This document shows positions 14,716 through 54,505 of a DNA stretch of 64,000 nucleotides, piece after piece. The stretch is from Imperialibacter sp. EC-SDR9 (lineage in GTDB: Bacteria; Bacteroidota; Bacteroidia; Cytophagales; Cyclobacteriaceae), in NCBI RefSeq assembly GCF_902498805.1, contig NZ_LR701583.1, forward strand, positions 62,001-126,000, written 5' to 3'. Positions within the stretch are counted from its first letter, which is position 1. Each line of letters opens with the position of its first letter. A program made the translations under genes and the position numbers. The notes beneath the pieces are model-generated. The model was not told the DNA's origin. It saw nothing but the letters and a program-made list of their open reading frames with translations, and ran no database searches.

Positions 14716-16068
14716 ATGGGTAGAATGACGCAACAACAAGTTAAACATCTTTATTGGAGAGCTGGTTTTGGTATTACCAACAAGGAGCTAAAAAGAGCTA
14801 CTAAACGGGGAAGAGCCCGCCTCGTCAAGCAACTGCTAAAACCAAGAGAGGTGACTCAATTGCAGCTGCGCAGTGAGGAATTCGTTAAGGATGAAATACC
14901 TCCGAAAAAAATCAGCCCCTCCAGAATTAAGCAACAACAGAAACAGTACCTAAACTTTGACTGGCTCACTGAGATCATCTCTTCAGACTATGTTCTGAAT
15001 GAGAAAATGTCACTCCTTTGGCACGGACATTTTGCTTGCAATATTGGAAACGCACATTACCTGAAAGACCTGGTTAATACCATACGAAAGAATGCACTTG
15101 GGAACTTTGGCACCCTTCTGAGGGAGGCTTCCAAGTCGCCGGCGATGATGCAGTTTCTTAACACCGGACAAAATCAAAAGGAACACCCTAATGAAAATTT
15201 TGCCAGAGAACTCTTAGAGTTGTTTACTCTTGGTATAGGCAATTACACGGAGGAGGACATCAAAGAAGTAGCAAAGGCTTTTACTGGCTGGAAGACCAAT
15301 AAAGATGGTGACTTTTTTATCAACACAAAACAACATGACAATTCTCAAAAAACCTTCAAGGGGGTTACCGGCAACCTTGATGGAGATGGCATAATTGATA
15401 TAATCCTTGAACAAAAGGAAACGAGTATCTTCATTTGCCAAAAGATTTATAAGTCATTTGTTAATGAGCAAGTGGACGATAAGCTTGTGGAACTAATGGC
15501 CGATGTATTCCGGCGGAACTACAATATTTCGGAGCTTATGGAGTTCATCTTTACGTCCGATTGGTTTTACTCCCAAAACAACATCGGCTGCAATATCAAA
15601 TCACCGATTGACTTAGTAGTGGGGCTAAGCAAATCCTTTAAAGTTAGCTACACCAAGAAAGACGGCCTCCTGAGAGCTCAAAAAGCTCTAAATCAAAGAC
15701 TATTTTATCCTCCAAATGTAGCAGGGTGGCCTGGAGGGAAAACGTGGATTGACAACTCCACTCTTGCTTACCGACTTAGACTCCCATCATTGATATTGAA
15801 CAATGGCAGTCTGGATTGGGAGGATACTGATGGCGACGAAGACACTTTCTTAGAAAGTGACCCTTCCAAACGAAACCTCTTTTCCTCTGTAGATTGGGAT
15901 TTCTTTAAAAAAGATGTGAAAAAGCTTCCTCATGTTGAAATTCTAAGCCTTTTATTGCAAAGCAACCCTTTGACACTTCAGAACTATGAATACTCCTTTA
16001 ACGAGACCGACTCAATTGAGGAATTTACGCTGGCTGTTCTAAGTCTACCCGAATACCAAACTTATTAG
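14716..16068 (+). CDS. DUF1800 domain protein
   Basis: 450 residues. Family marks are LYWRAGFGIT near the N-terminus, MSLLWHGHFAC, MMQFLNTGQN, ENFARELLELFTLG, YTEEDIKEVAKAFTGW and PPNVAGWPGGKTWI. These blocks define DUF1800, a mostly helical family of unknown biochemical function. No signal peptide is obvious, although these proteins are often thought to act in the envelope with their DUF1501 partner. The DUF1501 gene starts 5 bases after its stop, the standard pairing for this family. The start could also be the Met at codon 4. Confidence 0.92.
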   Translation: MGRMTQQQVKHLYWRAGFGITNKELKRATKRGRARLVKQLLKPREVTQLQLRSEEFVKDEIPPKKISPSRIKQQQKQYLNFDWLTEIISSDYVLNEKMSLLWHGHFACNIGNAHYLKDLVNTIRKNALGNFGTLLREASKSPAMMQFLNTGQNQKEHPNENFARELLELFTLGIGNYTEEDIKEVAKAFTGWKTNKDGDFFINTKQHDNSQKTFKGVTGNLDGDGIIDIILEQKETSIFICQKIYKSFVNEQVDDKLVELMADVFRRNYNISELMEFIFTSDWFYSQNNIGCNIKSPIDLVVGLSKSFKVSYTKKDGLLRAQKALNQRLFYPPNVAGWPGGKTWIDNSTLAYRLRLPSLILNNGSLDWEDTDGDEDTFLESDPSKRNLFSSVDWDFFKKDVKKLPHVEILSLLLQSNPLTLQNYEYSFNETDSIEEFTLAVLSLPEYQTY

Positions 16069-16073
16069 AAAGC

Positions 16074-17264
16074 ATGAAAAGAAGACAGTTTATAAAGAGG
16101 ACATCATTTGCGACATCAGCTGCATTCGTCCCGCTTTTCCTTAAACCCTTCGAAAGTAGTGGGTCAATTACGTTCGAAGGCCGAAACCTTGTTATTATTC
16201 AGCTATCAGGAGGAAATGACGGCCTCAACACCCTCGTGCCGTTCAATAATGACTTGTACTATCAAAACCGGGCAAAGATAGGCTTGCCAAAAAGTGACCT
16301 TATTCTTCTAAATGATGAAATTGGATTAAATCGTGGCCTCATGCCATTTAAGCGACTTTATGACCAGGGCCATCTGGCGATAATCAACTCTGTTGGCTAC
16401 CCCAATCCAAACAGGTCACACTTTCGGTCGATGGACATCTGGCATTCCGCCTCTGACTCGGATCAATATCTGTCGTCAGGATGGATAGGCAGGTATCTTG
16501 ACGCTCAGTGCTACCCTCCCCACGGTGCCGTAGAGGCAACCTCAAGCCTTTCATTTGCATTAAAAGGAGAGAAGGTAAATGGATTTGCCACCGGGAGTTC
16601 ACTCGGATCAATGAATAGTCAAATCTATAATTCATTGTCAAAGAATTTTGCAGGAGATGGTAAAGAAATGTTGTCTGAAGGCAACCTTGGCTACCTGTAT
16701 AAGACAATTGCAGACACCCACTCTTCTATAGCTTACCTCAAAGGAAAGATGGATCAATCTCCAAGCGGCAGGGAGTATCCCGGCACTAGTTTGGGACGAG
16801 ATCTAAAACTGATTGCCGATTTAATTATTGGGGGATCCGAAACGTCGATCTATTATGCTTCATTGGGTGGTTTCGATTCTCACCAAAATCAGAGCAAAAC
16901 TCAAGAGACTCGTCTAAGTATTTACGCCGATGCCGTCGAATCATTCGTAAATGATTTAACTAAAAACGGCAAATTCAAGGAGACCGTGATTTTCACGTTT
17001 TCTGAGTTTGGCAGGCGAGTGCAAGAAAATGCCAGTGAGGGGACGGATCATGGCACTGCAAATGTAGCCTTTGTCATTGGAGACAATCTTAAACAACAAG
17101 GCCTGATCAATACCATGCCCGACCTTTCAAATCTCGACGAGAATGGGGATTTAATTTATGAGATTGATTTCAGAGCTATCTACTCTACCCTGCTGAGCAA
17201 GCATTTGAATGTGAAACATGAATCAATTATTGGTAGCTCATTTGATCCTTTGTATTTTTTGTGA
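16074..17264 (+). CDS. DUF1501 protein with Tat signal
   Basis: 396 residues. The N-terminus MKRRQFIKRTSFATSAAFVP is a twin-arginine signal (R-R-x-F-I-K), so the protein is probably exported folded. The mature part belongs to the DUF1501 family, related to sulfatase/alkaline-phosphatase folds: VIIQLSGGNDGLNTLVP at the N-terminus, SIYYASLGGFDSHQNQ in the middle, and EFGRRVQENASEGTDHGTA near the end with potential metal-binding Asp and His. Its gene is coupled to the DUF1800 gene (5-base gap). The pair is widespread in Bacteroidota, Planctomycetes and Proteobacteria, but the substrate is unknown. Confidence 0.92.
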   Translation: MKRRQFIKRTSFATSAAFVPLFLKPFESSGSITFEGRNLVIIQLSGGNDGLNTLVPFNNDLYYQNRAKIGLPKSDLILLNDEIGLNRGLMPFKRLYDQGHLAIINSVGYPNPNRSHFRSMDIWHSASDSDQYLSSGWIGRYLDAQCYPPHGAVEATSSLSFALKGEKVNGFATGSSLGSMNSQIYNSLSKNFAGDGKEMLSEGNLGYLYKTIADTHSSIAYLKGKMDQSPSGREYPGTSLGRDLKLIADLIIGGSETSIYYASLGGFDSHQNQSKTQETRLSIYADAVESFVNDLTKNGKFKETVIFTFSEFGRRVQENASEGTDHGTANVAFVIGDNLKQQGLINTMPDLSNLDENGDLIYEIDFRAIYSTLLSKHLNVKHESIIGSSFDPLYFL

Positions 17265-18337: not shown

Positions 18338-21300
18338 ATGTACCGTTTTAGTCACTATTTGGGCCTCGCCGGGCTCATTGTTGTAGCACTGTCTACTGAC
18401 GCATTTTCCCAGGGCAATTCTGTTGGCATCAACACCGCCACACCCAATCCCAACGCTGTCCTTCAACTCATTTCACCCAACAATAACCAGGGCCTTCTTA
18501 TTCCCCGCCTTACTACCTCCCAACGACTAGCCATGCAATTGCAGGCGTCGGAAAAAGGGCTGATGGTATTTGACGACACCGAAGGATTGTTCTACTATTG
18601 GAACGGATCGGCATGGAATAAATTGCTGGTATCACAAAATCTTCAAACGTTATCTCTTGATGGCAGTCTGCTTAAAGTGTCAGGCGCTAACGAAGTTGAC
18701 CTGGCCGACATCGACACCGACAAGCAGAACCTGACTTTTGAGGGTACCAACCTGTCCATCGACCGTGGCAACACAGTTGATTTGAGCAGCCTTATTACTA
18801 CCAGCGACGCTGACCCTGAAAACGAACTGCAATCACTTGAATTCAGCGGCGGGGAGCTCAAACTAACCAACGACCCCACCTCAGTCGTGGTTGACTTATC
18901 TAATTATGATACTGATGTAACCGACGATTTTGATGGCGATTACAACAGCCTAGCGAATCTACCTACGCTTTTTAGTGGTGATTTTGGTGATCTTGGGAAT
19001 GTGCCCGCCGACCTAGCCGATGGGGATGATGTGGATGATGCTGATGCCGATGCCAGTAACGAAATACAAACGATTATTGCCGGCACAGGAATGACGGTTA
19101 CACCTTCGGGAATAAACTACACTGTAACAAATGCTGCTCCCGATCAAACGGTAGCACTCAGTAACGGTGGATCCGGCAATCTTACAATTACCGGTAGCTA
19201 TCCGAATTTCACACTCGACGTACCATCTGTCAATGATGCCGATGCGGATCCAAACAATGAAGATCAAACTGTTTCCGCCGGGACAGGTATATCTGTCGTT
19301 CAAACAGGTGACGATTTTCAGGTAACGAATACCTCTCCTGATCAAACAGTAGCGCTTAACAATGGAGGCTCTGGTTTTCTAACGATTACTGGCACCTATC
19401 CTAACTTTACTCTGGACGTGCCGTCGGTGAATGATGCTGATGCCAGCACTGCAAATGAGATACAAACAATCACTGCCGGCACAGGAATGACCGTCACACC
19501 CTCGGGAATAAACTACACTGTAACAAATGCTGCTCCCGATCAAACGGTAGCACTCAATAACGGTGGATCCGGCAATCTTACAATTACCGGTAGCTATCCG
19601 AATTTCACACTCGACGTACCATCTGTCAATGATGCCGATGCGGATCCAAATAATGAAGATCAAACTGTTTCCGCCGGGACAGGTATATCTGTCGTTCAAA
19701 CAGGTGACGATTTTCAGGTAACGAATACCTCTCCTGATCAAACAGTAGCGCTTAACAATGGAGGCTCTGGTTTTCTAACGATTACTGGTACCTATCCTAA
19801 CTTTACTCTGGACGTGCCGTCGGTGAATGATGCTGATGCCAGCACTGCAAATGAGATACAAACAATCACTGCCGGCACAGGAATGACGGTTACACCTTCG
19901 GGAATAAACTACACTGTAACAAATGCTGCTCCCGATCAAACGGTAGCGCTCAATAACGGTGGATCCGGCAATCTTACAATTACCGGTAGCTATCCGAATT
20001 TCACACTCGACGTACCATCTGTCAATGATGCCGATGCGGATCCAAATAATGAAGATCAAACTGTTTCCGCCGGGACAGGTATATCTGTCGTTCAAACAGG
20101 TGACGATTTTCAGGTAACGAATACCTCTCCTGATCAAACAGTAGCGCTTAACAATGGAGGCTCTGGTTTTCTAACGATTACTGGTACCTATCCTAACTTT
20201 ACTCTGGACGTGCCGTCGGTGAATGATGCTGATGCCAGCACTGCAAATGAGATACAAACAATCACTGCCGGCACAGGAATGACGGTTACACCTTCGGGAA
20301 TAAACTACACTGTAACAAACGCTGCTCCCGACCAGACTGTAGTGCTTGCCGATGGCGGTGCTGGAAATGTAACCATAGGCGGCACCTACCCTAACCTTAC
20401 TATCGACGTGCTTTCGCTAGACGATGCTGATGCTGACCCAACCAACGAGATTCAAGACATCAGCACCGACGCAACGGCAGGAAATATCACCTTGTCATCA
20501 GGCTCAACATTGGCTCTTAATGTCGACGACGCAGATGCTGACCCAACCAACGAGATTCAAGATATCAGCACCGACGCAACTGCAGGAAATATCACCTTGT
20601 CATCAGGCTCAACACTGGCTCTTAATGTCGACGATGCAGATGCTGACCCAACCAACGAGATTCAAGACATCAGCACTGACGCAACTGCAGGAAATATCAC
20701 CTTGTCATCAGGCTCAACATTGGCTCTTAATGTCGACGATGCAGATGCTGACCCAACCAATGAAATTCAAGATATCAGCACCGACGCAACGGCAGGAAAT
20801 ATCACTTTGTCGTCAGGCTCAACATTGGCTCTTAATGTCGACGATGCAGATGCTGACCCAACCAACGAGATTCAAGACATCAGCACTGACGCAACTGCAG
20901 GAAATATCACCTTGTCGTCAGGCTCAACATTGGCTCTTAACGTCGACGATGCAGATCCTGACCCAACCAATGAAATTCAAGACATCAGCACGGACGCAAC
21001 GGCAGGAAATATCACTTTGTCATCTGGATCAACATTGGCCCTAAATGTTAACGATGCAGATGCTGACCCAACCAACGAGATTCAAGACCTGGACCTGACA
21101 GCGAATACACTCACTATCACCAACAACGGATCGGCCACAAACATTGACTTAAGCCCTTACCAGCAGGATATATCAATTTCCGGAAATACATTAAGCATTA
21201 GTGGAGGAACTGGTTTCAATCTGACCGCCACTTCCCCCAACCCAATGGAGGTGCTTAAATGGAATGGTACCAATTGGGACACTGGCACTGATAATGTAAA

Positions 21301-22171
21301 TGATGGTGATTCTAACCCGTCAAATGAGCTTCAAACGCTAAATCTCACCGGCACCAATTTGACAATATCCGGCTTCCCGCTTAGTCCAGTCGATCTTAGT
21401 CCGATTGGCGTGCTACCAGATCAAACCGGCCATACCGGCGAATATCTTACAACCAATGGTACTGGAGCCAGCTGGAACGCACTTGGGGCGTTGGCTTCGC
21501 AGAATTCAGTAACAACCGGTTTTATAACCGATGGTACTATCGCTGCAGCGGACTTGAATGCTACAGTAGCTGGAAATGGCTTATCTGGAGGGGCTGGCAC
21601 GCCACTAGCAGTCAATTTATCAGGCACATCCGGCCTTCAAATAACAACAGATCAGTTGGAGATGCCTACCCTTTTTCCAGGCGGCACCACAGTAGGCGGA
21701 GGAGCAACTACCGCAATCAATAGCTTAACTTTCGACGCCAAAGGTAGGTTTGTTAGTGCAACGACTATTATTGTCCTTTTGAGTGACAAACGTCTAAAGA
21801 AGGAGATTACCCAACTCGATAGTTCACTGGAGAAATTGATGCAGTTAAACGGATACAACTACTATCTTAAATCTGACTCCCTCAGCAAGGAACTAAAAAC
21901 CGGTGTCATAGCGCAAGAGGTCGAAAAAGTATTCCCGAATCTCATTTTGAATAGGCCTGATGGGTTTCTCGCAGTTGACTACCAGGGCCTCATCCCCATC
22001 CTCCTTGAAGCCCTCAAAGAAGAACACGCCAGAGTCTCCGGGCTTGAAAATGAGTTGGCCCAAATGAAAGTCCAGCTCTCCTCCAACGACGAGCGGTTCA
22101 AGGCCCTCGAAGCAAAACTTGACCTTCTCATCCAATCTACAGCTAAAGCCACTACTTCCAGTCAGGAATAG
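18338..22171 (+). CDS. Repeat-rich fibre-like surface protein with C-terminal S74 intramolecular chaperone
   Basis: 1277 residues. A signal peptide (about 1-24, ending AFSQ) is followed by the Bacteroidota fibre-head motif SVGINTATPNPNAVLQL and LLIPRLTTSQR. The centre is made of three 132-residue repeats (about 240-665) and six 35-residue repeats (about 695-904) of short beta elements rich in Asp, Asn, Thr and Gly, suggesting an elongated, probably trimeric, calcium-friendly fibre. The C-terminus (about 1140-1277) is a Peptidase_S74 domain: S1149-D-K-R-L-K1154 keeps the Ser/Lys dyad spacing of phage endosialidase chaperones, then GVIAQEVEKVFPNL and a terminal coiled coil. By analogy it would trimerise the fibre and cut itself off. 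The type B sorting-domain gene follows after 2 bases. No T9SS sorting domain remains at its own C-terminus. Confidence 0.85.
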   Translation: MYRFSHYLGLAGLIVVALSTDAFSQGNSVGINTATPNPNAVLQLISPNNNQGLLIPRLTTSQRLAMQLQASEKGLMVFDDTEGLFYYWNGSAWNKLLVSQNLQTLSLDGSLLKVSGANEVDLADIDTDKQNLTFEGTNLSIDRGNTVDLSSLITTSDADPENELQSLEFSGGELKLTNDPTSVVVDLSNYDTDVTDDFDGDYNSLANLPTLFSGDFGDLGNVPADLADGDDVDDADADASNEIQTIIAGTGMTVTPSGINYTVTNAAPDQTVALSNGGSGNLTITGSYPNFTLDVPSVNDADADPNNEDQTVSAGTGISVVQTGDDFQVTNTSPDQTVALNNGGSGFLTITGTYPNFTLDVPSVNDADASTANEIQTITAGTGMTVTPSGINYTVTNAAPDQTVALNNGGSGNLTITGSYPNFTLDVPSVNDADADPNNEDQTVSAGTGISVVQTGDDFQVTNTSPDQTVALNNGGSGFLTITGTYPNFTLDVPSVNDADASTANEIQTITAGTGMTVTPSGINYTVTNAAPDQTVALNNGGSGNLTITGSYPNFTLDVPSVNDADADPNNEDQTVSAGTGISVVQTGDDFQVTNTSPDQTVALNNGGSGFLTITGTYPNFTLDVPSVNDADASTANEIQTITAGTGMTVTPSGINYTVTNAAPDQTVVLADGGAGNVTIGGTYPNLTIDVLSLDDADADPTNEIQDISTDATAGNITLSSGSTLALNVDDADADPTNEIQDISTDATAGNITLSSGSTLALNVDDADADPTNEIQDISTDATAGNITLSSGSTLALNVDDADADPTNEIQDISTDATAGNITLSSGSTLALNVDDADADPTNEIQDISTDATAGNITLSSGSTLALNVDDADPDPTNEIQDISTDATAGNITLSSGSTLALNVNDADADPTNEIQDLDLTANTLTITNNGSATNIDLSPYQQDISISGNTLSISGGTGFNLTATSPNPMEVLKWNGTNWDTGTDNVNDGDSNPSNELQTLNLTGTNLTISGFPLSPVDLSPIGVLPDQTGHTGEYLTTNGTGASWNALGALASQNSVTTGFITDGTIAAADLNATVAGNGLSGGAGTPLAVNLSGTSGLQITTDQLEMPTLFPGGTTVGGGATTAINSLTFDAKGRFVSATTIIVLLSDKRLKKEITQLDSSLEKLMQLNGYNYYLKSDSLSKELKTGVIAQEVEKVFPNLILNRPDGFLAVDYQGLIPILLEALKEEHARVSGLENELAQMKVQLSSNDERFKALEAKLDLLIQSTAKATTSSQE
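19058..20330. repeat. 396-base tandem repeat inside the fibre gene
   Basis: About 3.2 copies with period 396 bases (132 codons), so the frame is kept. Copies start near 19058, 19454 and 19850, with a partial fourth from about 20246. They differ by only a few bases, mainly in the first copy, indicating recent duplication or gene conversion. Confidence 0.9.
20420..21070. repeat. 105-base tandem repeat inside the fibre gene
   Basis: Six full copies of a 105-base (35-codon) unit start at 20420, 20525, 20630, 20735, 20840 and 20945, with a seventh truncated after about 20 bases. The unit encodes DADADPTNEIQDISTDATAG followed by NITLSSGSTLALNV. Differences are mostly synonymous. Confidence 0.9.
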
Positions 22172-22173
22172 AG

Positions 22174-23376
22174 ATGCGTATTCTTTTCTTCATATCGATC
22201 CTTTTTGCAGGTGTGCAATGCCTGGCTCAACCGTTTACGCTACAGCCCAATGCCTCCTTGTTTGTTGAAGGAAATGCCTCCATTTATTTCAGCAATGAAG
22301 CCGCCTTCCAGGGCAAGCTCCAGAATCAGGGTACCTTTTTATTTAACAAGGATGTAGACTTCGGGGAAAATACTTCGGCCGGTTCGCTCGAGTTTGTGGG
22401 CACTGCAGACCAGGCGCTGACTGGAAATGAAGTCGCAGCAACCAATTTTTCGCTGAACAAGCAGGCCAGCCTGTTTCTTTCAGCCGGTGCATTAGAAATA
22501 TCCGGCACATTGGATATGACAAAAGGCTATCTTTTTCCCCAGTCCACTAGGGTTCATGTAGCAAGCGGACGGATTGCCGGTGGTTCAGCCGACAGCTATA
22601 TTGAGGGGGAAATAAGTCAAACATCGGCCGGAAATGTGCTCTACTATCCAATGGGGCTTAATGGTTATTTCAACAGTGTCTCTCTCCTTCAAACATCGCA
22701 GGGAGATAAAATCGCTGTTGAAATCACTATTCCTGACGCTTCTCTTTTGATCCCCGGTGATTCGCTGATTGGCTTAGCGGATGAAGTGCAGTGGATTGTT
22801 ACCAAAGAGAGCGAAGAAAATCTGGCCACCACTGTGGAGGTTAACTTTGACGGCTTCGAACTAAATTCGCTGGTGAACCCCCAAACCATACGGGCTCACA
22901 GGTATGGGCCGGTAGTAGCTCATTTAGATGCTGAAGAGGGGAAGTATTTACAGCTGGGCATAGGCTCACTCACCGACACCGATTCGCTGACTTACGGCAT
23001 GCTGACCTCTGCCAAAACCCTGGTACTGCGAAACGAGCCCAAGTACGTCAGCCTTGGCAGAATGCCTTTGAGCTCCGGGCCTGCGTTTTTCGTACCCAAC
23101 ATATTTGCACCCCGTGCGGCGCTGGAAGAAAACAGGCTTTTCAGGCCATTTCTTGCCGGGGTTCCTGTCGAACGGTTCACAATGGCGATCTGGGACGGCT
23201 ACAATGTAGAAATGTACAACGTCAATCAAACCGATGCGGTACTTGACGAGCTGGGTTGGGACGGAACTACAAACGGTGGTGCCACAGCCTCAGAAGGAGT
23301 TTACTACTATTCCATTCAGGTGGTTACGCCACAAGGGTCATTCAGTAAAAAAGGATCATTCATTTTACTGCGATGA
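22174..23376 (+). CDS. Secreted protein with type B T9SS (gliding-motility-associated) C-terminal domain
   Basis: 400 residues with a signal peptide (cleavage near CLAQ). The N-terminal part (about 20-280) consists of beta-strand-rich repeats (LFVEGNASIYFSNEAAF, GSLEFVGTADQAL) typical of Bacteroidota surface proteins. The last about 95 residues match the CHU_C/type B sorting domain: VPNIFAPR, FTMAIWDGYNVEMYN, LGWDGTTNGG, EGVYYYSIQV, KKGSFILLR. Type B substrates usually need a SprF-like partner, and the PorP/SprF gene overlaps this gene's stop by 4 bases. It lies 2 bases after the fibre gene, so it may anchor or co-export the fibre (inference). Confidence 0.85.
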   Translation: MRILFFISILFAGVQCLAQPFTLQPNASLFVEGNASIYFSNEAAFQGKLQNQGTFLFNKDVDFGENTSAGSLEFVGTADQALTGNEVAATNFSLNKQASLFLSAGALEISGTLDMTKGYLFPQSTRVHVASGRIAGGSADSYIEGEISQTSAGNVLYYPMGLNGYFNSVSLLQTSQGDKIAVEITIPDASLLIPGDSLIGLADEVQWIVTKESEENLATTVEVNFDGFELNSLVNPQTIRAHRYGPVVAHLDAEEGKYLQLGIGSLTDTDSLTYGMLTSAKTLVLRNEPKYVSLGRMPLSSGPAFFVPNIFAPRAALEENRLFRPFLAGVPVERFTMAIWDGYNVEMYNVNQTDAVLDELGWDGTTNGGATASEGVYYYSIQVVTPQGSFSKKGSFILLR

Positions 23377-24416
23377 AAAGAAGCACACTCACCGGCCTTA
23401 TTCTACTTCTGCTCATTGGACAGATAAAAGCCCAGGGTGGGCAGTTTTCGCAGTTTTACTCCAGCGCTATTTTTGTTAACCCGGCGTTTGCAGGAACAAA
23501 CCCGTATCTCTCCGCACGAATCAACTTCAACAAAAGCAAGCTGGCAGGCGATGGTTCCCTTCACGACCTCAGTCAGGCCACTGTCTCCTACCCTGTTTTT
23601 CAAAATACAAGCAGGAAATTTCAGGTTGGTGGTGCGGGTCTTACTTTCTTTAAGGAAACCCAGGGCATTCAGGGTGCCTTCTCTACACAAAAAATATTAC
23701 TTACGGGCGCCTATGCACTCAAGCTAAAAAGACTAAAGAACAATACCTTGATCTTTGGGTTGCAGGGAGGCGTTACACAAACAAGAATCTCTCTGAATGG
23801 ATTACAATGGGGCTCGCAGTACAACCCCTATATCGGCTTCGACAACACACAAAACCCTGAGGACATTGGCAAACTGTCGTCTTACCACCCTGTTTTCAAT
23901 TTTGGCGTTTTATATTCCGCCATCGACAATCCCAATGCGATGTTCAGGGATCGGTCGTTTACTATTGGGCTCTCTGCCGACAACCTCAATACTCCAAAAA
24001 GTCGGTTTGGCGGCCTCTACCTTTCGGATAATCCGATACTATTCAAGCTGGTATCAAACGCCAAGTTTATAGTAACGCCGAAAACATACGTACACCCTTC
24101 CCTTCTGGTGGCGTACTCATCACAAAGCTATCAGGTAAACTTCGGCACTTACCTGTCCCATCAGATCAATAGCACCATGTCCGATGTTGGCTTGACCCTG
24201 CAAGTGGGCACATGGTACCGGTTGTTTGATTCATTCATTGTATTGGGTGGGCTCAAAATCAATGACTTTAGTGTCGGCATTAGTTACGACCTCAATTCGA
24301 ATACTTATCGTAACAACGAGATTTATGGTCAAATTGCACCATCATTTGAAGTATCTTTGGGATATGACTTCAACTTCCGCAATAACCCGTTCAAGGTTAA
24401 TAGCCCAATATTCTAA
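23373..24416 (+). CDS. PorP/SprF-family T9SS outer-membrane protein
   Basis: 347 residues. After the signal peptide the diagnostic motif QFSQFYSSAIFVNPAFAGT appears (residues about 24-43), followed by a beta-barrel with alternating strands to the end. This family forms 14-stranded barrels that work in T9SS; SprF is needed for secretion of type B sorting-domain proteins such as SprB. The ATG overlaps the stop of the type B domain protein gene, and the PorE-like gene starts 3 bases downstream. This makes a dedicated export/attachment set for the proteins encoded upstream. Confidence 0.93.
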   Translation: MKRSTLTGLILLLLIGQIKAQGGQFSQFYSSAIFVNPAFAGTNPYLSARINFNKSKLAGDGSLHDLSQATVSYPVFQNTSRKFQVGGAGLTFFKETQGIQGAFSTQKILLTGAYALKLKRLKNNTLIFGLQGGVTQTRISLNGLQWGSQYNPYIGFDNTQNPEDIGKLSSYHPVFNFGVLYSAIDNPNAMFRDRSFTIGLSADNLNTPKSRFGGLYLSDNPILFKLVSNAKFIVTPKTYVHPSLLVAYSSQSYQVNFGTYLSHQINSTMSDVGLTLQVGTWYRLFDSFIVLGGLKINDFSVGISYDLNSNTYRNNEIYGQIAPSFEVSLGYDFNFRNNPFKVNSPIF

Positions 24417-24419
24417 GAC

Positions 24420-26750
24420 ATGAAATTTTTTTGGTCTGCGTTGCTGCTTGCTTTTTCACTGCATGTTTCCGGTCAGTCTGTCGAAAAACTAAAAAAGGTG
24501 GCTGACGAATACTACGATGCAGAAAGGTACCTTGAGGCAGCGGAGTTTTACGAAAAGGTTATCTCTCTTTCTCCCAGCGACCTTGAGTCGAGATACCGGC
24601 AGGCGTTTAGCTACTTAAAGAGTACCAACTACAACACGGCGGAAGAGAAATTCAGTGCGCTGAGTTTGGTTTCCGGCCCTCATCAACCGTCCTCCATTTA
24701 CTACCATGGGTTCCTGACAAAGATCAAGGGAGACTTTAAGGCTGCGGACTCCATCTTTAGCACCTTCCTGCAACTAGAACCAGCAAGCCAGCAAAAGCTT
24801 TTGTCGCTGGTTAAATTTCAGAAGGCTGGTTGTGAGCTGGGCATGAGGCTCCAGCGAGCCAAACCCAAGTATAAACTCACTTCTTTAACAGACGTTAATT
24901 CGGATCAAAACGACCTTGGGGTAATAGAGTGGGCTGTTAATGGCAACCTTGTGATGTCCACAACCCGAAAAGTACACTCTCTCCAATACTATGACCCTAA
25001 ATTTGGCGACTACCTGCCCAGTCTTATATCGTACGGCAAAGCCAACAACGATAAATGGAAAGAGACCTCATTTTTCAAAAAGCTCAACACCCGATGGTCG
25101 CAGGGCACTGGCTCATTTACTGCTGACGGACGCACGTTTTACTACAGCGACTGCAATAAAGAGAGTACCTGCAAAGTGCTGGTTACCACCTGGGATGGGA
25201 AAAACTGGACAGCGCCTGCGGAGCTTGACACTACTATCAACATGCCTGGCACTGATGTAAAGCATCCTTTTGTTACAGCAAGCGCCGACACCATCTTTTT
25301 CTCCTCCAACAGGCCCGGAGGTCAGGGCGGCCTCGATATTTGGATGAGTCTTCGGATTGACAGCAGCAGATGGACAACGGCTATCAACCTGGGGGAAAGA
25401 ATCAATACGCAGGGCGACGAAATAACTCCCTTCTACTCCCCTGCCTATAGCTGCCTCACATTTGCTTCCAACGGCTTGGCGGGCTACGGCGGCTTCGATC
25501 TGTACCTGGCTAAGCAGCTATCTTTTTTCGAACCGAAAGTATATAACCTGGGGGTGCCCTTCAATAGTACCCTGGACGACACCTATCTATTCCTGGGAAA
25601 AAGCGGCTATCTCTCATCTAACAGAGATGGCAAAGAACTTGACGTCATGACCTTTCCTTACGGCAGTCTTAAGGAGTTTTTTGAGTACATCATGACCAAC
25701 GATGCCATTATCGACTTTCAGTATTACACAGCCTCCTCACTTGATCTTTACACTTTCCGGATGGACGACTACCAGGGGTACGATATCTTTTTTCCAACAG
25801 GGAGAGACTCGGCCCCACCAACTTTCAATACAACAACGGAGCTTATCAATATACACGGCGCTGGTGTAACGCCTGGAGAGCTTGTCAGGCTGACCATTGA
25901 CTCCCGGACTGATATTCTGACACTGGCCAACCAGTCTGGCCGTTTTGCATATTTGCTATCTCCCGACAGTATCTCAAACAAATACACCATTACTACGACA
26001 AGCAAGCAGCGGGCAGTAGTGAATGAAGTAGATACAGCGGGGAGCTTTTATGAGTATGCTTACGAAAAAGTCTATTTTAACTATGGGAGCTCGCATTTAA
26101 GAAGCGAGACTTTTGTGGCACTCGATGACCTGGTGAGGCAGTTTGAAGAAAGCAATATTGCGCTGATTGACATTCAGACACATGCCGACAGCAGAGGCGA
26201 CAAGGATTACAATAGGACATTGAGCGAAAAAAGGGGTGTCTCTATCATGAAATACCTGCTATCGAAAGGGATACCCGAAGCCAAAATGAGGGTATTCGCT
26301 TTCGGGGAAGAGGAGCCGATTTCAGAAAATGACTCATGGTACGCCAGGTTCTTTAACAGGCGAGCCCAAATTATTATTCACACCGAAACTCAGGTCATCT
26401 ATAATAAGCCCGAAACGTTTTTGGTGATGAGGTCGCTGGATCTAAAGTCGGTGGCGCAGAATTTGGGCATCGCTTCAAACAAACTTAAAGAATGGAATGG
26501 TATCGACAATCGTGACCTGGCTGAAGGCCATACGCTGAGGGTTTTTGACGCCGAGCACAGAACACCAAGCATGCGCAACCTGATCAATCAAAAAGATATA
26601 GATGATAATTTCTTTCTGTACACAGTAAAACCTGGGGAGTCGCTTGAATCGATCGCCAGGAAATTCAAAACCATTGAAGAGCTCATATACGAAATAAATC
26701 AGCTCGAAGAAGACTTGAAACCAGGCGACGAAATAATAGTGATGTTGTAG
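24420..26750 (+). CDS. PorE-like TPR-PD40-OmpA protein with two LysM modules
   Basis: 776 residues with a signal peptide ending HVSGQ. Domains in order: TPR helices (about 20-140), a WD40-like PD40 propeller (about 155-420; FFSSNRPGGQGGLDIWMS is typical), an Ig-like/CRD segment (about 470-540) and an OmpA-type peptidoglycan-binding domain (about 545-660). The last keeps the binding Asp in THADSRGDKDYN and Arg in LSEKRG. Two LysM-like modules follow (about 670-715 and 728-776; YTVKPGESLESIARKF). PorE and related proteins link the T9SS machinery to peptidoglycan; the extra LysM pair would add glycan contacts. The gene ends the surface operon, and its stop directly abuts that of the convergent CHAT gene. 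Confidence 0.87.
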   Translation: MKFFWSALLLAFSLHVSGQSVEKLKKVADEYYDAERYLEAAEFYEKVISLSPSDLESRYRQAFSYLKSTNYNTAEEKFSALSLVSGPHQPSSIYYHGFLTKIKGDFKAADSIFSTFLQLEPASQQKLLSLVKFQKAGCELGMRLQRAKPKYKLTSLTDVNSDQNDLGVIEWAVNGNLVMSTTRKVHSLQYYDPKFGDYLPSLISYGKANNDKWKETSFFKKLNTRWSQGTGSFTADGRTFYYSDCNKESTCKVLVTTWDGKNWTAPAELDTTINMPGTDVKHPFVTASADTIFFSSNRPGGQGGLDIWMSLRIDSSRWTTAINLGERINTQGDEITPFYSPAYSCLTFASNGLAGYGGFDLYLAKQLSFFEPKVYNLGVPFNSTLDDTYLFLGKSGYLSSNRDGKELDVMTFPYGSLKEFFEYIMTNDAIIDFQYYTASSLDLYTFRMDDYQGYDIFFPTGRDSAPPTFNTTTELINIHGAGVTPGELVRLTIDSRTDILTLANQSGRFAYLLSPDSISNKYTITTTSKQRAVVNEVDTAGSFYEYAYEKVYFNYGSSHLRSETFVALDDLVRQFEESNIALIDIQTHADSRGDKDYNRTLSEKRGVSIMKYLLSKGIPEAKMRVFAFGEEEPISENDSWYARFFNRRAQIIIHTETQVIYNKPETFLVMRSLDLKSVAQNLGIASNKLKEWNGIDNRDLAEGHTLRVFDAEHRTPSMRNLINQKDIDDNFFLYTVKPGESLESIARKFKTIEELIYEINQLEEDLKPGDEIIVML

Positions 26751-29684
26751 TTACTTCTTCGCTACGAGAATAAAAGCACCCCAGGTAAATGGGTCAGGGT
26801 ATTGTTCCTTAAAACGCTGTCTTGCTGTGAAAAAAGAGTCCTCGATGGAATGCTCTTTCACAAACTCTGAATAAAACATGTTCATGAAGTTTTTGGTGGC
26901 GGTGTCATTCACCTTTACCAGAGAAATAATGAGGTTGCTTGCTCCAGCTACCAAAAAGGCACGCTGTAAGCCGTAAACACCCTCCCCATTCTTAACCGTT
27001 CCCAGTGCCGTTTCGCAAGCCGAGAGCACAACCAGCCTCGTTTGATCAAGCTTTAAGTTCATAGCCTCATAGGCTGTCAATATTCCATCCTCTTGTGTGC
27101 TCTTATCTCTGGCCAGATAAACGCCTGAGTTAAGCAACGCACTCTGCCGCTTGCTGTCTTCCTCAAAATAGCCATGAGTTGCCAGGTGAAGTATGCCGGG
27201 ATCCTGATTAAGTTTGAGGTTGCTCTCTGTTGCATTCAGGTAATAGAAGTCCGACACTTTCCACTTTCCTCCCTGCAGAATCTCAGTGACATCATCCGCC
27301 TCCCGCTCCGCTTCCGGCAATGCATTGAGTGGCTCAGTCAAATTGAGGCTGCTAAAGTCCGGATTACCAAAAATAGCCGCTGTGTAAAGCTTGTTCGCAG
27401 CAACCTTACCAGTTTGGATAAAGTCCTTGCCGCTGGTAATATGCACTAGCTTGTACTTGTCCGACACGTATTGCTGTGTGGCTGAATCATACAAAACGGC
27501 CGGGTTTAACTTGTGATAGATGCCGTCCGGGGCGTAATAAACCTTCTTGTCTGTTTTAACTTCATTGTCAATTTTTTTCCAGAATACATTATAGGAAGAA
27601 GCATCTTCAAGGCCGTATCTGAGGGAATTTTTATAGAAACTATACTGATCCACCAGCTGTTCACTGCCATCAAGCTTGATCCTTTTCAGCTGGTTAGAGC
27701 CTCCCTGGAGAATGAACACCACGTAGCTGCTTTGGTCGTCAAAACCCTGTTCCGCACCAAATTTACCCAGCTTGAGTGAGTAGTTCCTGAATTCAATCAC
27801 CTCTACTAAAACAGCGCTATCTGCAATATTCTTCTCTACATCTTGCCAGCTGTAGAAAGAGAGCTCACTCTGAGAGGAGAACGTTGACGAAAGAAGCGCC
27901 ATTTTTTTCTCCAGGTTGTTGCACTGATCTTCCAGGCTTGCAATATTGATCCCCCTCAGCGCCAGCTCATGTTCGGAAAGAAGGTAGCTTTGAGCCAACG
28001 TATACTTCGCCTCTCTCCATTTAATAAAGCTATTTTTCACGGCGGGATCTGAATTTTCCAACATGGTAGTCCGCATCTTGTCGGCCGCATAAAACAATAC
28101 TGATTTCGTGTTCAAATAGTAGTTGTAAACCTTTTCCGTCCACTCTGTTTCAAAATATCTTTTCCCGAAAGAAATACTCGCAAAACGTTCCAGGTTAAAC
28201 TTAATGTCTTCAAAAAATAGCTGCCTTTGTTGATCAGTGAGCACAGGAAACACCGACTGCATGTGATGAATTTCTGTTTTTAGTGCTTGGTCGAAATGCC
28301 CGAGAGCCTGAAGTGTGTCGCCCTTATTCAAAAAGTGGACGCCGAGGTCGTTGAGGCTCTTCGCATACATCGGGTGTTTCTCCCCCAGCTTCTCCTTCCT
28401 GATCTTCAGTGCCTGTTTCAAAAGCTTCTCCGACAATTCTACATACCCAAACGCCTGATAAATCAGTGCTATATTGTTAAGTGTAGTAGCATACCTGGGG
28501 TTTTCGGGGCCATAAATAGTCTTGTCCAGGTCAAGCACTCTCATATAGATATTAAGGGCGCTATTGATGTCTCCCAGGCTTTTCTGACAATTTGCCAAAT
28601 TGCTCAGCACGTTAGCATAATCGGGGTGAACGCCTCCATATAACTCCCGCATCGCAGCAGCACTCTCCTGAAACATGATGAAAGCCTGTTTGTACTCTTT
28701 CTTCTTTGAATAAATAGCCCCTATGTTATTGGTCACGTAGGGCAATATTTCAGTCCTGCTACCTGCATAGTTCAACAAGTTCTCAAAATATGCCTCTGAG
28801 GTCACAAGGTCATTGACCTTAAAGTACAATACAGCCAGGCTATTAAGTGTTTCGATTCTAAACAGTGAGTCCGAGGGATAGCGCTCCTTTTTCAATTGCA
28901 AATTGCTTAGCAACTGGTTTTCCGAGGCAGAAAACTCTCCCTGATCAAGTTTTATCGCTGCCAACCTGTCAAGTGCCCGCAAATGCATGACCTCATTCTT
29001 TCCCTTAAGCGCTTCTATCGCCTGGTTCAGGGCAACTTCACCTTCCTCATAGTCACCCATGTCCCTTAGCAGTGTCCCGTACTCGGTCAGCAAGGCTCCC
29101 TTTATGGAGTCATTTTCTGAAAAATACTGCGAGGTTAACCTGAGTGCCCGTTCAAACTGGAGTCGGCTCTTTTCATATTGACCAACTTCCATATAGAAGA
29201 GTCCATTTTTGTAAGTGGCGTCCAGGTATATAGGGCTCTGTTCGGAATAATTCTTTCGCACAAGCGAGTCTGCCCAAAGCAGATACGATTCAGCCGCCAG
29301 GTAGTCGCTATTGTTCTGATAAGCCACGGAAAGGTTCAAACATATCTTGATAAGCCCGGGGCTCAGGCTATCATATTGCTCCACTTCTTGCTTCAGGCTG
29401 TTCTGAATGGCTCTGATGGCCCTGTTGTGCTCTGCAAAGCCCAGGTAAATAAGTCCAATATTATTGTATGCCTCTGCGTACCCCACCTCCCTCTGACAAA
29501 GCCCGGAGTCGAGCCTTGAGATGAGTTGATCTGCAAAGTACAACGCCCTGACCCTATCTGTTTTTGAGTAGTAGTTGGCGCTGTCCAACTGTTCCAGGCA
29601 ATTTTGAGAAATGGCCAGAGTTGGAGTTAAAAAAAATGCAAACCAGAAAAGATAGAAAAGTAGTCTATTCATAATAGGATTCAA
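26751..29684 (-). CDS. TPR-CHAT (caspase-like peptidase) protein
   Basis: 977 residues. The N-terminus (MNPIMNRLLFYLFWFAFFL, ending AISQN) is a signal peptide, so the protein should reach the periplasm or outer membrane. Residues about 30-460 are TPR units, several with the kinesin-light-chain-like pattern (HPMYAKSLNDLG, NPRYATTLNNIALIYQ). The C-terminal CHAT domain has the caspase-type dyad His837 (LHLATHGYF) and Cys890 (LSACETALG), followed by GVYGLQRAFLVAGA. In the next block SLVKVND, Val stands where most relatives have Trp. CHAT proteases cut proteins in signalling or toxin systems; exported TPR-CHAT proteins are common in Bacteroidota, and their targets are not known. The kinase gene lies 145 bases upstream on the same strand. 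Confidence 0.9.
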   Translation of the reverse strand: MNPIMNRLLFYLFWFAFFLTPTLAISQNCLEQLDSANYYSKTDRVRALYFADQLISRLDSGLCQREVGYAEAYNNIGLIYLGFAEHNRAIRAIQNSLKQEVEQYDSLSPGLIKICLNLSVAYQNNSDYLAAESYLLWADSLVRKNYSEQSPIYLDATYKNGLFYMEVGQYEKSRLQFERALRLTSQYFSENDSIKGALLTEYGTLLRDMGDYEEGEVALNQAIEALKGKNEVMHLRALDRLAAIKLDQGEFSASENQLLSNLQLKKERYPSDSLFRIETLNSLAVLYFKVNDLVTSEAYFENLLNYAGSRTEILPYVTNNIGAIYSKKKEYKQAFIMFQESAAAMRELYGGVHPDYANVLSNLANCQKSLGDINSALNIYMRVLDLDKTIYGPENPRYATTLNNIALIYQAFGYVELSEKLLKQALKIRKEKLGEKHPMYAKSLNDLGVHFLNKGDTLQALGHFDQALKTEIHHMQSVFPVLTDQQRQLFFEDIKFNLERFASISFGKRYFETEWTEKVYNYYLNTKSVLFYAADKMRTTMLENSDPAVKNSFIKWREAKYTLAQSYLLSEHELALRGINIASLEDQCNNLEKKMALLSSTFSSQSELSFYSWQDVEKNIADSAVLVEVIEFRNYSLKLGKFGAEQGFDDQSSYVVFILQGGSNQLKRIKLDGSEQLVDQYSFYKNSLRYGLEDASSYNVFWKKIDNEVKTDKKVYYAPDGIYHKLNPAVLYDSATQQYVSDKYKLVHITSGKDFIQTGKVAANKLYTAAIFGNPDFSSLNLTEPLNALPEAEREADDVTEILQGGKWKVSDFYYLNATESNLKLNQDPGILHLATHGYFEEDSKRQSALLNSGVYLARDKSTQEDGILTAYEAMNLKLDQTRLVVLSACETALGTVKNGEGVYGLQRAFLVAGASNLIISLVKVNDTATKNFMNMFYSEFVKEHSIEDSFFTARQRFKEQYPDPFTWGAFILVAKK

Positions 29685-37669: not shown

Positions 37670-40600
37670 TCAATGAATAATCAACAGCTTCTTAGGTTCG
37701 AACCTGGCATTCTCGTTGCTGATGATCACAAAGTACATGCCACTGGGCACGGACCTTGTGTCGAATGTTGCCGCTTCACTCCCCTTCTGGACCCTTCCGT
37801 TCGAAATGGTAGCTCCCGCCTGATCAATCAGCCTCCATTCAAAGTCGTTGTTTAGTTGACTATCAAACCTGACACCAACTTCTGTATTGGCCGGGTTCGG
37901 GTAAAGGGCGTAGGATGAGGCTATTTCGCCGGGAAGGTCTACGCCGGTTTCTGTAGCCTGCTTGCCTTTAATGTCCAGAGACGCAGCTTGATAAATCAAC
38001 TTAGTGTCGTTGCTCTGAATAAACGCCACCACTTTCAAATGATCGGGGTCCTTTACAAGCTTCCCACTAATTTCCCAGGTGTAAGGGAAGGTTAGCACTG
38101 TTTCCGTGCTTAGCCCGGCAAACCCACTGATGATCTCGCCATTACCATTGGGTAGTAACTTACGCATAACACTTTGGTATGGTTTGCCCTGAAACTCAAG
38201 AGAATCTTCTACGATGGCTACATACAAGCGATGCTCACCACTTGAAGGTACAGTTCCATTTGTAGAAGCCTTTCTGCTTACCTTAACATTGAACGACAGC
38301 TCAGTATCACCGGCACTTAGCTGTTCGATGGATATGCCTGCCAGAGGATCCCGAAGCGACGACCTGGATAACTCCAGTTCACGAAAAGGTCTTCCACTGG
38401 CACCTGCCGCCCGATAAGTTTCTTCCGACACGTTGCCAGAGAGAATTGAAGTGGGCACATCTGTAATACCATAGAAAAGAACCCTTGACCCGGCATCGGC
38501 CTTGTTGAGCTGGTTAAACGGATCACTGCCCTCCCCTCCTTTGAATTCGGTATGATAAGCTATCGGGATAATATCATTATTGTTGTTAGTAAGAACCGCA
38601 AGTTCCTTTTGAAGTTGTGTGTCAACCTCATTGCTCAACGAGTTAGTTGTTGAGCTAAATTTCTCAAGCAGCACCTGTTTGGTTCGGTTGCCTATCCAGA
38701 AGTTATCAAATGCAAAGCCCTCGTCGGTTGGATCTTCTGAGGCGTTGGACGCAAACGCAAACCGAAAAATAACTTGCTTTTTGTCACCGGGAATCAGATC
38801 CAGTTTCTGTCGGGCCGATGCGTAGGTAAAGTCCACCTGACCGGTCTTCAGGCTCGTTCCAGCCCAGCCTACTCTGCTGCTTGAGGTACTGAAAAAATCC
38901 TGGCTTCCCGGATCAGAAGAGATGCCGTCGATTGTATACCAATTTTCTCCAGTTGACTGATCTTCGAGTGGTTCGTAACTTCCAAGCACCTTCCAGGTAT
39001 CTCCATTGTCGACAGAGTATTGAAATACAACGCCGTCCTTCCTGGCCTCTGTTAGAAACATCCTGTCGAAGCTCACCATTGGGCGTGTAAGTGCTGAGAG
39101 ATCAAAAGCAGGTGACATCACCCAGGCGGTTTGATTGATTTGATAGAGGCCTCCGGCTTTTGTAAACATCGCCCTCTCCCCAACACTGGCTGAGTTGAGA
39201 TTTTGTCCGCCGCTGGTACCTGTCTCCCAATCATTGGGACGGACGGCTTTTGAAAACTTATCCTCAGTAGGCGTAAACAGAAATGTATTATCTACCCACC
39301 AGCCATCAGTGCCAGCCTCAAAGCTGTGCGGAGTGAAATTTTCGCCGACACTAACAAGGGGTAAAATGTGAACCACCCTCTCGGTAGCAGCAACACACTC
39401 GTTCACAGAAACCATTGTCAACCTCACAGTGTAATCGCCCTCTCCAGGGAAAGTAAAGCCTCCGTACTCAGCGTCAAAATAGGCCCGAGCAAAATCATTG
39501 CTATTCTGGGTATCAGGGTTGCTGCTCCTCTCCATGATTAAAATGTCCCCGCTAGCGGTTACCCACTCAAGCTTCATGTATTTCAAAAACTGATCGGGCA
39601 ATATTCGGTTGTCAAACGAGAAAATAGTCGGGCTACCGGCTACGACATGCCTCCAGGCAATATAGGGGTCGGGCGAACTACCGATATTTCTAACTACCTC
39701 TACCGAATTAACAGTACCATTAACACCAGTAACTTTCGCCTTGAAGATATAGTTACCAGGCGTAGGTTTTTCAGTATAAATGAAATTAGTTCCTGTACCT
39801 ATAACAGTTTCCACAGCATTGGCGGCATCTCCCTTAATCGTCCATTCTACTGAGCTAATACCACCTAAAGCTTCTGCGTTGGGAACATTGGCTGTTAAAT
39901 CAATATCAAACGATGAACATCCACCAGTCACAACTAAATCAACCTGAGGAATGGGCTGCACAGTAACTGTTTTTGTGACCTCATTGTAGCAGCCATTTGT
40001 ACCAGAAGATCCGTAGGTTATCGGATAGCTGGTGTTAGCTCCATACAAATCTTCGCCTCTCGCAACCAACGGAGCAAATACTGCTGTGGTGAGACTTGTA
40101 GTAGTGGTACCAGTGCCGGTAAATGTACCATTGCTCTGATTGCCGGTAAACCGGATAACCTGACTTTCCGACACATCTACTAACAGGTTACTGTTTTCTT
40201 CATCAAAAGAAATTGTGCTGGAAAAATCAACCACTGTCAAAGGCTTCACCCGAACCACCCTTTGGAGAGAGTCGATACAACCATTGGCATTTGTCAATGT
40301 GTACGTAATCGTAAACTCTGGATTTTCCGCAGCAGGCAACTCTTGTGGATCCGTGAGCCCCACTGCCAACAGAGGATCAAAAATGGCAGTTCCATCGCCA
40401 TTGTCTGTAATACCGGTTCCCTTAAAGGTGCCGGCCAGCGTTCCCGCCAAAGAACCAACAAGGTTAAATGTTCCATTATCTACGCAAATGGCATAGGTAC
40501 CTGGCACAGGTGTGTTATCATCATCATCAAAGGTCATTGTGACCGTTGGAAGTGCGTTGATGATGACCTGTACCTCGGTAGCGGCACTACGGCAGCCTTC

Positions 40601-54300: not shown

Positions 54301-54502
54301 ACCTGTTCTCTGCCAGCTTTACAAGGACTTCATCACTCTGGCCCTCACGGCCAAAGAAAAGATGGGATTCTTCCACACCGAATGGCCTAAGGCCAGGGAA
54401 TGGATTGAACAAGGTAGTGGTGCTACCTCTTGAAATAGTGCCAGACGAAACCTGATCAGGTCTTCCGTCGGACTCGTTGGGGTCAAGGTTGCTAGCGCTC
54501 AT
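51332..54502 (-). CDS. Membrane-anchored nSTAND1-type ATPase with coiled coil and WD40 propeller
   Basis: 1056 residues. NPFPGLRPFGVEESHLFFGR opens an nSTAND1 NTPase domain with Walker A GSSGSGKS (73-80), Walker B LILVDQFEE (171-179) and a winged-helix-like region (about 335-430, DISHESLMRIWTRL). A strongly basic stretch (KRQIRRSR, 512-519) precedes a single membrane helix (about 520-543). An Ala/Glu/Lys/Gln-rich coiled coil (about 544-670) and six to seven WD40 repeats follow (about 725-1030; SVVYSKDGQSMYTAGSDGRV, AVSFSPDGHYLASASND). By the positive-inside rule the ATPase is cytoplasmic and the coiled coil plus WD40 propeller are periplasmic. The gene begins 3 bases after the TIR-like gene and ends 1 base before the barrel gene. 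STAND proteins are signal-driven oligomerisation switches. Confidence 0.88.
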   Translation of the reverse strand: MSASNLDPNESDGRPDQVSSGTISRGSTTTLFNPFPGLRPFGVEESHLFFGREGQSDEVLVKLAENRFSAVLGSSGSGKSSLMYCGLIPTLYGGFMTQAGSNWKIVVLRPGGGPIDNLAESLVEKDDEYAGLEEEERLIRKTITATVLRSSSLGLVEAVKQLKKSEDENILILVDQFEELFRYKKTESMTSSQDESSAFVNLLMEAVHQFDEPIYVTITMRSDFIGECAVFPELTQMINDSHYLIPQMTRDQKRLAIEGPVAVGGGTIAPRLVQQLLNDVGDNPDQLPILQHSLMRTWSFWADNHKEAESMDIRHYNAIGTLKEALSQHANEAYDMLSKREKQICETMFKALTERGSENQGIRRPTKLSVIASIAGVTEDEVYRVVDKFREPGRSLLMPPHGKQLESETVIDISHESLMRIWTRLKSWLDEESRSAEMYLKLSESAGRYQEGRAGLWKMPDLQLALNWQEENRPTLVWGQRYNTAYERTIVFLETSKRAYETEQRNKELLQKRQIRRSRIFALVLAGAALVCIFMMIYAFILAAEATKQEALAVTEAENAKIAQADAEKQRGLAVESAKEANDQREKAELATTEAIEQKNEADQQRRNAEAATLQAEAARKDAVIAQEEAVKQATIANEQKDLATAARVQADEARKNAEDLRYQAVAQSMAIKTAQVKDTTRKTLIAMQAFNFFREYSNKPYNGDIYQGLYNAWTTENGADVVKWKGHTGGVKSVVYSKDGQSMYTAGSDGRVLKWNIANNAREGVDMLPAPNSSVNRVVAVSPDEKYLAVGNEDHIQLIDLSNPAAPNLLDAHGGTVYDLVFLPDASGFVSAGTDGKIQRSNFSSFSSIATLDQPVKKLAISDDGKTLAAGGTDGNVYLYSMANNNLQATIVNADNVPITSVAFSRNGQFLAYGDQSGRIVIQDIVAKTPLAELNGHESTVSDLEFNGLTTLLASSGWDKTAKLWVLNDIFGLPTILNDHGDYVNAVSFSPDGHYLASASNDKFLRVWPTKPDMIAAGLCNEIDRNLDQTEWNQYVGSDIDYEITCPDYPSGAEQ

Positions 54503-54505
54503 AAT

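Follow-up and report, generated by a model that had tools for sequence, protein, structure and literature searches.

A fibre gene paired with a sorting-domain gene in an operon with type IX secretion components of Imperialibacter

Background

In a stretch of 64,000 nucleotides from Imperialibacter sp. EC-SDR9 (contig NZ_LR701583.1, positions 62,001 to 126,000 of the forward strand), the whole of which we call the window, a fibre protein with a phage-type S74 domain is encoded amid components of the type IX secretion system (T9SS). The question raised by this locus is how such a fibre could reach the cell surface and hold to it. Four genes follow one another on the + strand: those of the 1277-residue fibre protein (18338..22171), of a 400-residue protein which we call the adaptor (22174..23376), of a PorP/SprF-family outer-membrane protein (23373..24416) and of a PorE-like protein (24420..26750). 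A first-pass annotation had given this order with gaps of 2, -4 and 3 bases, and the open reading frames (ORFs) bear it out. The operon facts of that account stand; what it had missed is a gene on the - strand (26751..29684), convergent with the PorE-like gene and abutting it, for a TPR-CHAT protein with a leader-like N-terminus, and also two further cassettes of the same genome, one of which has no S74 domain.

T9SS cargo is usually sought by its C-terminal sorting domain (CTD). A profile scan found no match to a T9SS CTD in the fibre, which would ride on the adaptor by means of its head. We consider it rather probable that the cassette makes a two-partner T9SS surface fibre, where the fibre without CTD is carried and anchored by the CTD-bearing adaptor and where the S74 domain is one exchangeable trimerising end. 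Should fibres without CTD indeed be carried by adaptors, a large group of surface proteins of Bacteroidota has been overlooked, for which the head and adaptor domains would make a simple finder. Judging by the titles and abstract openings listed in our literature searches, no paper was found on S74 fibres and T9SS adaptors together, and the only listed one pairing "Peptidase S74" with "Bacteroidetes" concerns contractile injection systems (PMC8213781).

The fibre head and the adaptor solenoid form a constant pair

The fibre begins with a Sec-type leader recognised by eye (18338..18412, +), directly behind which lies a domain of about 70 residues that we named head1 (18413..18640, +). The adaptor begins with a beta-solenoid, the "adap" domain (about residues 20-176; 22231..22701, +). 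We built a profile for each of the two. No Pfam model matches more than 1 of 26 or more than 1 of 30 profile members at E<=0.05: neither head1 nor the adaptor solenoid has a Pfam family. In 45 genomes of the family, fibres with a strong head1 match (E<1e-18) have an adaptor-domain gene on the same strand within 15 kb in 30 of the 31 assessable cases, four more being cut by contig ends. All 52 head matches and 51 of the 77 adaptor matches were used in this survey; the 26 omitted ones are weaker and could only have added pairs. Large adaptor-domain proteins have head1 nearby in 6 cases out of 20.

The partner depends on the class of the head. We examined 57 S74 loci, that is, one S74 match in each of 57 genomes picked by eye for few contigs from 91 other genomes with S74 (in one, L091, our own S74 model found no S74). 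The adaptor domain lies on the same stretch in 16 of the 19 loci with head1 and in none of the 15 with a second class, head2 (Fisher p=4.5e-7). One of the 16, L049, was counted by way of a longer stretch, L154, the first stretch alone giving 15/19; in four others (L064, L086, L089, L100) the adaptor, though on the stretch, either does not follow the fibre directly or stands at a distance of several hundred bases. The remaining 23 of the 57 loci show neither head, in three of them (L076, L077, L079) because the fibre is cut short of it, each of these three with an adaptor-domain neighbour. Next to head2 fibres, the downstream protein matches a type A CTD in 14 cases out of 15. Upstream neighbours match type A in 3/30, and the 25 families listed for them, out of 191, do not include type B; six S74 loci of phage-type appearance were excluded from these neighbour scans. 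The head2 class, with its parallel pairing, has the motif PFQGxL and comprises L010 and L043 besides the 15 loci; one of its genes belongs to the present genome.

The same pairing is found starting from PorP. We sampled 32 places and 27 loci, two of them shared, thus 57 in all, which were read by hand. An adaptor-domain neighbour is present in 31, orthologues of the sister species included; in 12 the neighbour is type-B-like without the adaptor domain, in 2 it is of that sort and cut (L126, L142), and in 12 it was not recognised. A fibre ORF stands in the cluster in 30 of the 30 assessable PorP-linked adaptor cassettes (L113 is cut), 24 of them recognised by hidden Markov model, L138 with its weak head match (3e-5) included, and 6 as ORFs cut by a contig end. 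No head1 was found on the stretches of the 12 larger type-B-like proteins without adaptor domain; in one, L141, the type-B-like gene fills the stretch. Among the named holders are Ekhidna lutea DSM 19307 (L120) and Reichenbachiella faecimaris DSM 26133 (L112), whose head1 cassettes lack S74. The place of the fibre gene varies, as it precedes the adaptor in some cassettes and comes behind the PorE-like gene in others, which means that the link between head and adaptor survives reordering.

Hence the constant pair is the N-terminal head of the fibre and the N-terminal beta-solenoid of its neighbour. The earlier suggestion that a fibre without CTD is tied to a neighbouring sorting-domain protein is supported by the 30/31 and 30/30 counts; that interpretation was probably right on the neighbour and wrong on what is essential, as the S74 domain will illustrate.

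Variations on the pair were seen in passing. L145 has two tandem fibre-adaptor pairs with PorP after the second only. L167 (5705-8195, -) has three tandem short head1-like proteins (275-277 residues) and no adaptor match on the stretch.

The S74 domain is one end among several

Behind the head, the fibre has a stalk made of a 396-bp repeat (19064..20342, +; 3.2 copies, 98% matches) and of a 105-bp repeat (20420..21088, +; 6.4 copies, 92% matches), then the S74 core (21782..22039, +) and a C-terminal tail (22040..22168, +). Residues 1149-1203 match Pfam Peptidase_S74 with 56.8 bits (cut-off 22). The dyad previously described is indeed there, with Ser at 1149 and Lys at 1154, five residues apart, which is the spacing of S578/K583 in MYRF (PMC3742443). 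By analogy with its published relatives in phages and MYRF, as they are presented in PMC3742443, the chaperone is predicted to cut itself off before Ser1149 (codon at 21782). The dyad is nothing special to this fibre: Ser-x4-Lys opens 68 of the 69 S74 domains of the examined loci. The one S74 without the dyad Ser (L096, 5254-6363) has Cys instead and, by eye, no leader. The fibre itself contains no Cys.

The first-pass annotation had made S74 a defining part of the device and PorP/SprF its usual neighbour. Neither idea survived. S74 ends only 11 of the 30 assessable fibres of the PorP-led adaptor cassettes, and none in cassette B of this genome, so that we rejected it as a marker. Only 7 of the 57 loci have PorP in the same gene cluster as S74 (L063 would make an eighth, but with a mere fragment of PorP some 12 kb off), and we rejected it as a general neighbour of S74; the head2 fibres adjoin type A proteins, as counted above. 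It had been said that the idea would fall if homologues rarely neighboured PorP/SprF: for S74 proteins at large it does fall, and it holds, seen from the PorP side, for the PorP-linked adaptor cassettes.

Three S74 sites are present in the genome, and likewise three fibre cassettes, each with a convergent TPR-CHAT gene. Cassette A is that of the window. Cassette B, on contig C34, has fibre, adaptor, PorP, PorE-like and convergent CHAT genes, and no S74 was seen in its fibre in either this or the sister species. Cassette C has its two apparent ends on contigs C54 and C3. In the sister genome (G028), cassette C lies on one stretch (L044, which cuts the fibre), A on L045 and B on L130. The third S74 gene (C37) has a different head, followed by a large repeat protein which looks fibronectin-III-like by eye. 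On C2 there is also a pair made of a 1542-residue head1 fibre and an 835-residue adaptor protein, and the ORFs listed at this place include no PorP.

Some irregularities of these cassettes can be mentioned. The cassette B fibre is split into two ORFs (807 + 780 residues) in its repeat region (L011, 2629-7352) and is one frame of 1707 residues in the sister; this is either a real break or an assembly fault. In the sister, the CHAT gene of cassette C is in two ORFs (L044, 13626-16685, -), and beyond the CHAT gene of cassette A a 246-residue head1 protein abuts a 498-residue adaptor-domain protein (L045, 299-2535).

Fibre tips diverge as a mosaic

We searched the last 200 residues of ten related fibres against Pfam (E<=0.01) and obtained matches in 4 and none in 6: C1q in L147 (45.1 bits), a YadA head repeat in L104 (32.4 bits), and a phage depolymerase C-terminal domain in L105 (25.7 bits, cut-off 25) and L137 (34.3 bits). 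C1q, YadA-head and phage-depolymerase C-terminal modules are, like S74, of trimeric kinds.

Between the window and the sister species, the identities of the cassette A proteins are 97.7% for PorP, 95.9% for the PorE-like protein, 94.4% for the CHAT protein and 82% for the adaptor. In the fibre, the head is 93% identical (blocks of 54/60 and 56/60) and the S74 core 52%, and the tail is again better conserved than the core (31/38 in its last block). The window core shares 79% identity with the core of L159, a locus from another genus, although other heads are closer to the window head than the one of L159. In cassette C, the last 62 residues of the fibre are identical to the sister's and the blocks before them fall to 27/40 and then to 8-14 of 28-39, the change being abrupt in the DNA (32/60 to 58/60). 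In cassette B, three blocks before the tip have 57-60 of 60, and the next ones 36/56 and 26/41. Such profiles suggest that tip and chaperone were replaced by recombination; fast point evolution of the tips may have acted instead, especially in cassette B. The mosaic tips suggest a phage-like diversification of surface binding.

The adaptor and its sorting domain

In the structure of the adaptor, predicted with good confidence (mean pLDDT 87.5), the N-terminal beta-solenoid is followed by a middle beta domain and then by an Ig-like domain at the C-terminus (residues 302-400; 23077..23373, +). A Foldseek search with the whole adaptor was uninformative. When the Ig-like domain was compared with known structures (VIA-align), domains of streptococcal proteases came first (Z 9.9), followed among T9SS CTDs by 6za2 (Z 7.9, root mean square deviation (rmsd) 4.2, 91 residues aligned) and 8glk_D (Z 7.7, rmsd 2.5, 75 aligned). 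Since the streptococcal domains outrank the CTD structures, the Ig-like fold alone is not diagnostic.

It is the relatives which speak for a sorting domain of type B. Among the PorP-adjacent proteins, that of the window included, 26 of 34 match the type B family TIGR04131 at E<=0.05 and 3 of 34 match type A, which suggests that PorP-linked adaptors are mostly type B; for 16 adaptor-domain proteins without a PorP neighbour the figures are 9 for type B and 10 for type A. The adaptor domain thus goes together with two kinds of sorting domain. The assignment of the adaptor CTD to type B, already proposed by the first-pass annotation, is thus supported by the sequences of relatives and compatible with the structure model, the window protein itself staying below the curated cut-offs.

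PorP, PorE-like and CHAT proteins

The identity of the PorP/SprF protein is confirmed by TIGR03519 (152.7 bits, cut-off 90.55), and its gene overlaps that of the adaptor by 4 bases. It contains no Cys, and hence no C-tail Cys of the SprF kind. An alignment of 12 diverse PorP sequences gave no usable search pattern. The next protein has the TPR, PD40 (beta-propeller-type) and OmpA domains expected of the PorE-like protein announced earlier, and in addition two LysM stretches; its score against NF052230 is 216 bits for a cut-off of 600, for which reason we call it "PorE-like" only. PorE is a lipoprotein (PMC9143113), a feature missing here: there is no lipobox Cys, the first Cys being residue 138.

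The convergent protein has a CHAT domain (PF12770, 176.2 bits), whose His837 and Cys890 are conserved in all 18 aligned sequences, and a CHAT gene is present beside 18 cassettes. That the protein processes the assembly is a guess. In L133 and L147, the CHAT gene is grouped with the PorE-like gene, both being on the strand opposite to fibre, adaptor and PorP. SprA is present in the genome, spread over two contigs.

Proposed assembly and its alternatives

From these elements we propose the following scheme. The fibre would be exported by Sec. Once in the periplasm it would trimerise on the S74 chaperone at its C-terminus, which would then remove itself by the cut before Ser1149. The N-terminal head would dock on the beta-solenoid of the adaptor, and the adaptor, by its C-terminal sorting domain, would lead the complex through the SprA translocon, after which PorP/SprF would receive and hold it. 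Finally the PorE-like protein would fasten PorP to the cell wall, and the result would be a static surface fibre with an exchangeable outer tip.

The anchoring part of the scheme is modelled on published relatives, namely the PG1035-PorP-PorE complex of P. gingivalis (PMC9143113) and the type B-SprF pairs with PorE-like genes of F. johnsoniae, for instance Fjoh_3952-3951-3950 (PMC12618676). As in the F. johnsoniae operons of the latter account, a type B-like protein, PorP/SprF and a PorE-like gene are found together here; unlike both modules as described there, the cassette has in addition a fibre gene without CTD, its type B protein is small and built on a solenoid, and a TPR-CHAT gene often accompanies it. 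In the gliding adhesin system of SprB and SprF, a type B substrate likewise has a PorP/SprF carrier to itself (PMC12635249, PMC12618676). The cassette differs from it by a PorP without Cys, the C-tail cysteines of SprF mattering for movement according to PMC12635249, and by a PorE-like gene, a feature associated with static anchoring in PMC12618676. A PorP devoid of Cys would fit a static anchor rather than the disulfide link that PMC12635249 reports for gliding.

As a wider possibility, which we put forward tentatively, this T9SS two-partner route may serve a whole class of trimeric fibres without CTD, marked by their N-terminal head and wholly dependent on a cognate adaptor for export and anchoring (the solenoid for head1, other type A proteins for head2), whose tips and chaperones would be exchanged phage-like between strains and whose assembly would be processed, in one lineage, by an exported caspase-like CHAT protease.

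Several observations weigh against the two-partner reading. No partner is found near G032:C12 (L159), one of the strong heads, and among weaker head1-like proteins (E 1e-18 to 1e-10) only 1 is paired, 14 are unpaired and 2 are cut. Small adaptor-domain proteins have head1 within 15 kb in 23/31; of the 8 without, four are near contig ends. Of 90 genomes taken phylum-wide, 20 have head1 and 39 have the adaptor domain, so that the two are often apart outside the family. In 24 cassettes, the distances of head and adaptor correlate modestly (0.40, or 0.27 as a partial correlation given PorP), less than those of adaptor and PorP (0.68), and we rejected the idea that head and adaptor co-vary strongly. 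The adaptor solenoid of cassette A has diverged from the sister (21/40, 25/40) and the head has not (54/60, 56/60), which is a poor fit to a tight fixed interface. Lastly, the adaptor scores 15.5 and 18.3 bits against TIGR04131 (cut-off 35) and 22.2 bits against CHU_C (cut-off 27).

The fibre might instead be independent, either periplasmic or exported otherwise, the adaptor being itself the adhesin and the genes merely co-regulated surface genes. The modest co-variation agrees with this, as does the fast variation of the solenoid in cassette A. The solenoid, moreover, resembles adhesive ones, tapirin 6n2b (Z 10.2, rmsd 2.4 over 121) and the Ssp autotransporter 8e7f (Z 9.3, rmsd 3.7 over 149); no viral structure resembles it at E<=0.001. 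We nevertheless regard an independent fibre as unlikely, as it leaves aside the 30/31 pairing, which is kept when the genes are reordered, the specificity of the partner for the head class, and the fibre ORF found in every assessable PorP-led adaptor cassette.

The adaptor could also decorate the outer end of the fibre instead of its base, the fibre being held otherwise. Cassettes A and B do vary, relative to the sister, both at the fibre tip and in the 5' part of the adaptor; in cassette A, the N-terminal half of the adaptor goes down to 21/40 per block and its C-terminal half keeps 35-39/40. However, in cassette C the tip has changed and the part of the adaptor on C54 is 94.2% identical to the sister's, and the sorting domain and the PorP neighbour belong to the adaptor and not to the fibre, which makes this arrangement quite improbable.

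An enzyme or a toxin-delivery device rather than an adhesive fibre would have a precedent in the TANFOR toxins, where leader-bearing proteins without CTD are encoded beside T9SS CTD proteins and are proposed as T9SS cargo (PMC7073777). Here, unlike there, the pairing is one of two particular domains, and no enzyme or toxin domain over the curated cut-off was found in the fibre, the weak PHROG "toxin" match (E 0.0022, residues 244-280) lying within the repeats; we give this possibility very little weight.

The fibre shares with the S74/ICA proteins (phage tail spikes and fibres, MYRF; PMC3742443; PDB 6f45, 8jov, 3gud, 7dc3) an S74 with Ser-x4-Lys after a repeat stalk, and differs from them by its leader, its non-phage head and its sorting-domain partner, the cut being here a prediction. 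That it was captured from the tail of a phage or injection particle is scarcely credible: PHROG tail-fibre families do match its C-terminal region and 965 phage records have S74 homologues, all below 60% identity and 46% for the best-ranked, yet the nearest core found is bacterial (79%), the N-terminus is leader-like, head1 of the window, as a single query, has no match in 50,697 phage records (tblastn, E<=1e-5), and no phage gene was recognised among the nine window proteins scanned.

In shape the proposed two-partner fibre would recall the trimeric autotransporters of the YadA type, which are also head-stalk fibres; one related fibre, L104, has a YadA head repeat. Unlike these, the fibre has no membrane anchor of its own that we recognised, and its anchoring would fall to another protein, of the T9SS.

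Other features of the window

Upstream of the cassette lies a pair of DUF1800 and DUF1501 genes (14716-17264, +). Downstream, a 3670-residue protein (37670-48682, -) combines a type A sorting domain (44.8 bits) with an Omp28-like region that stays below threshold. Further on (51332-56002, -), a STAND NTPase with WD40 repeats (nSTAND1, 328.6 bits) stands beside a DUF4062 protein with a sub-threshold TIR match, and the two look like a signalling or defence pair.

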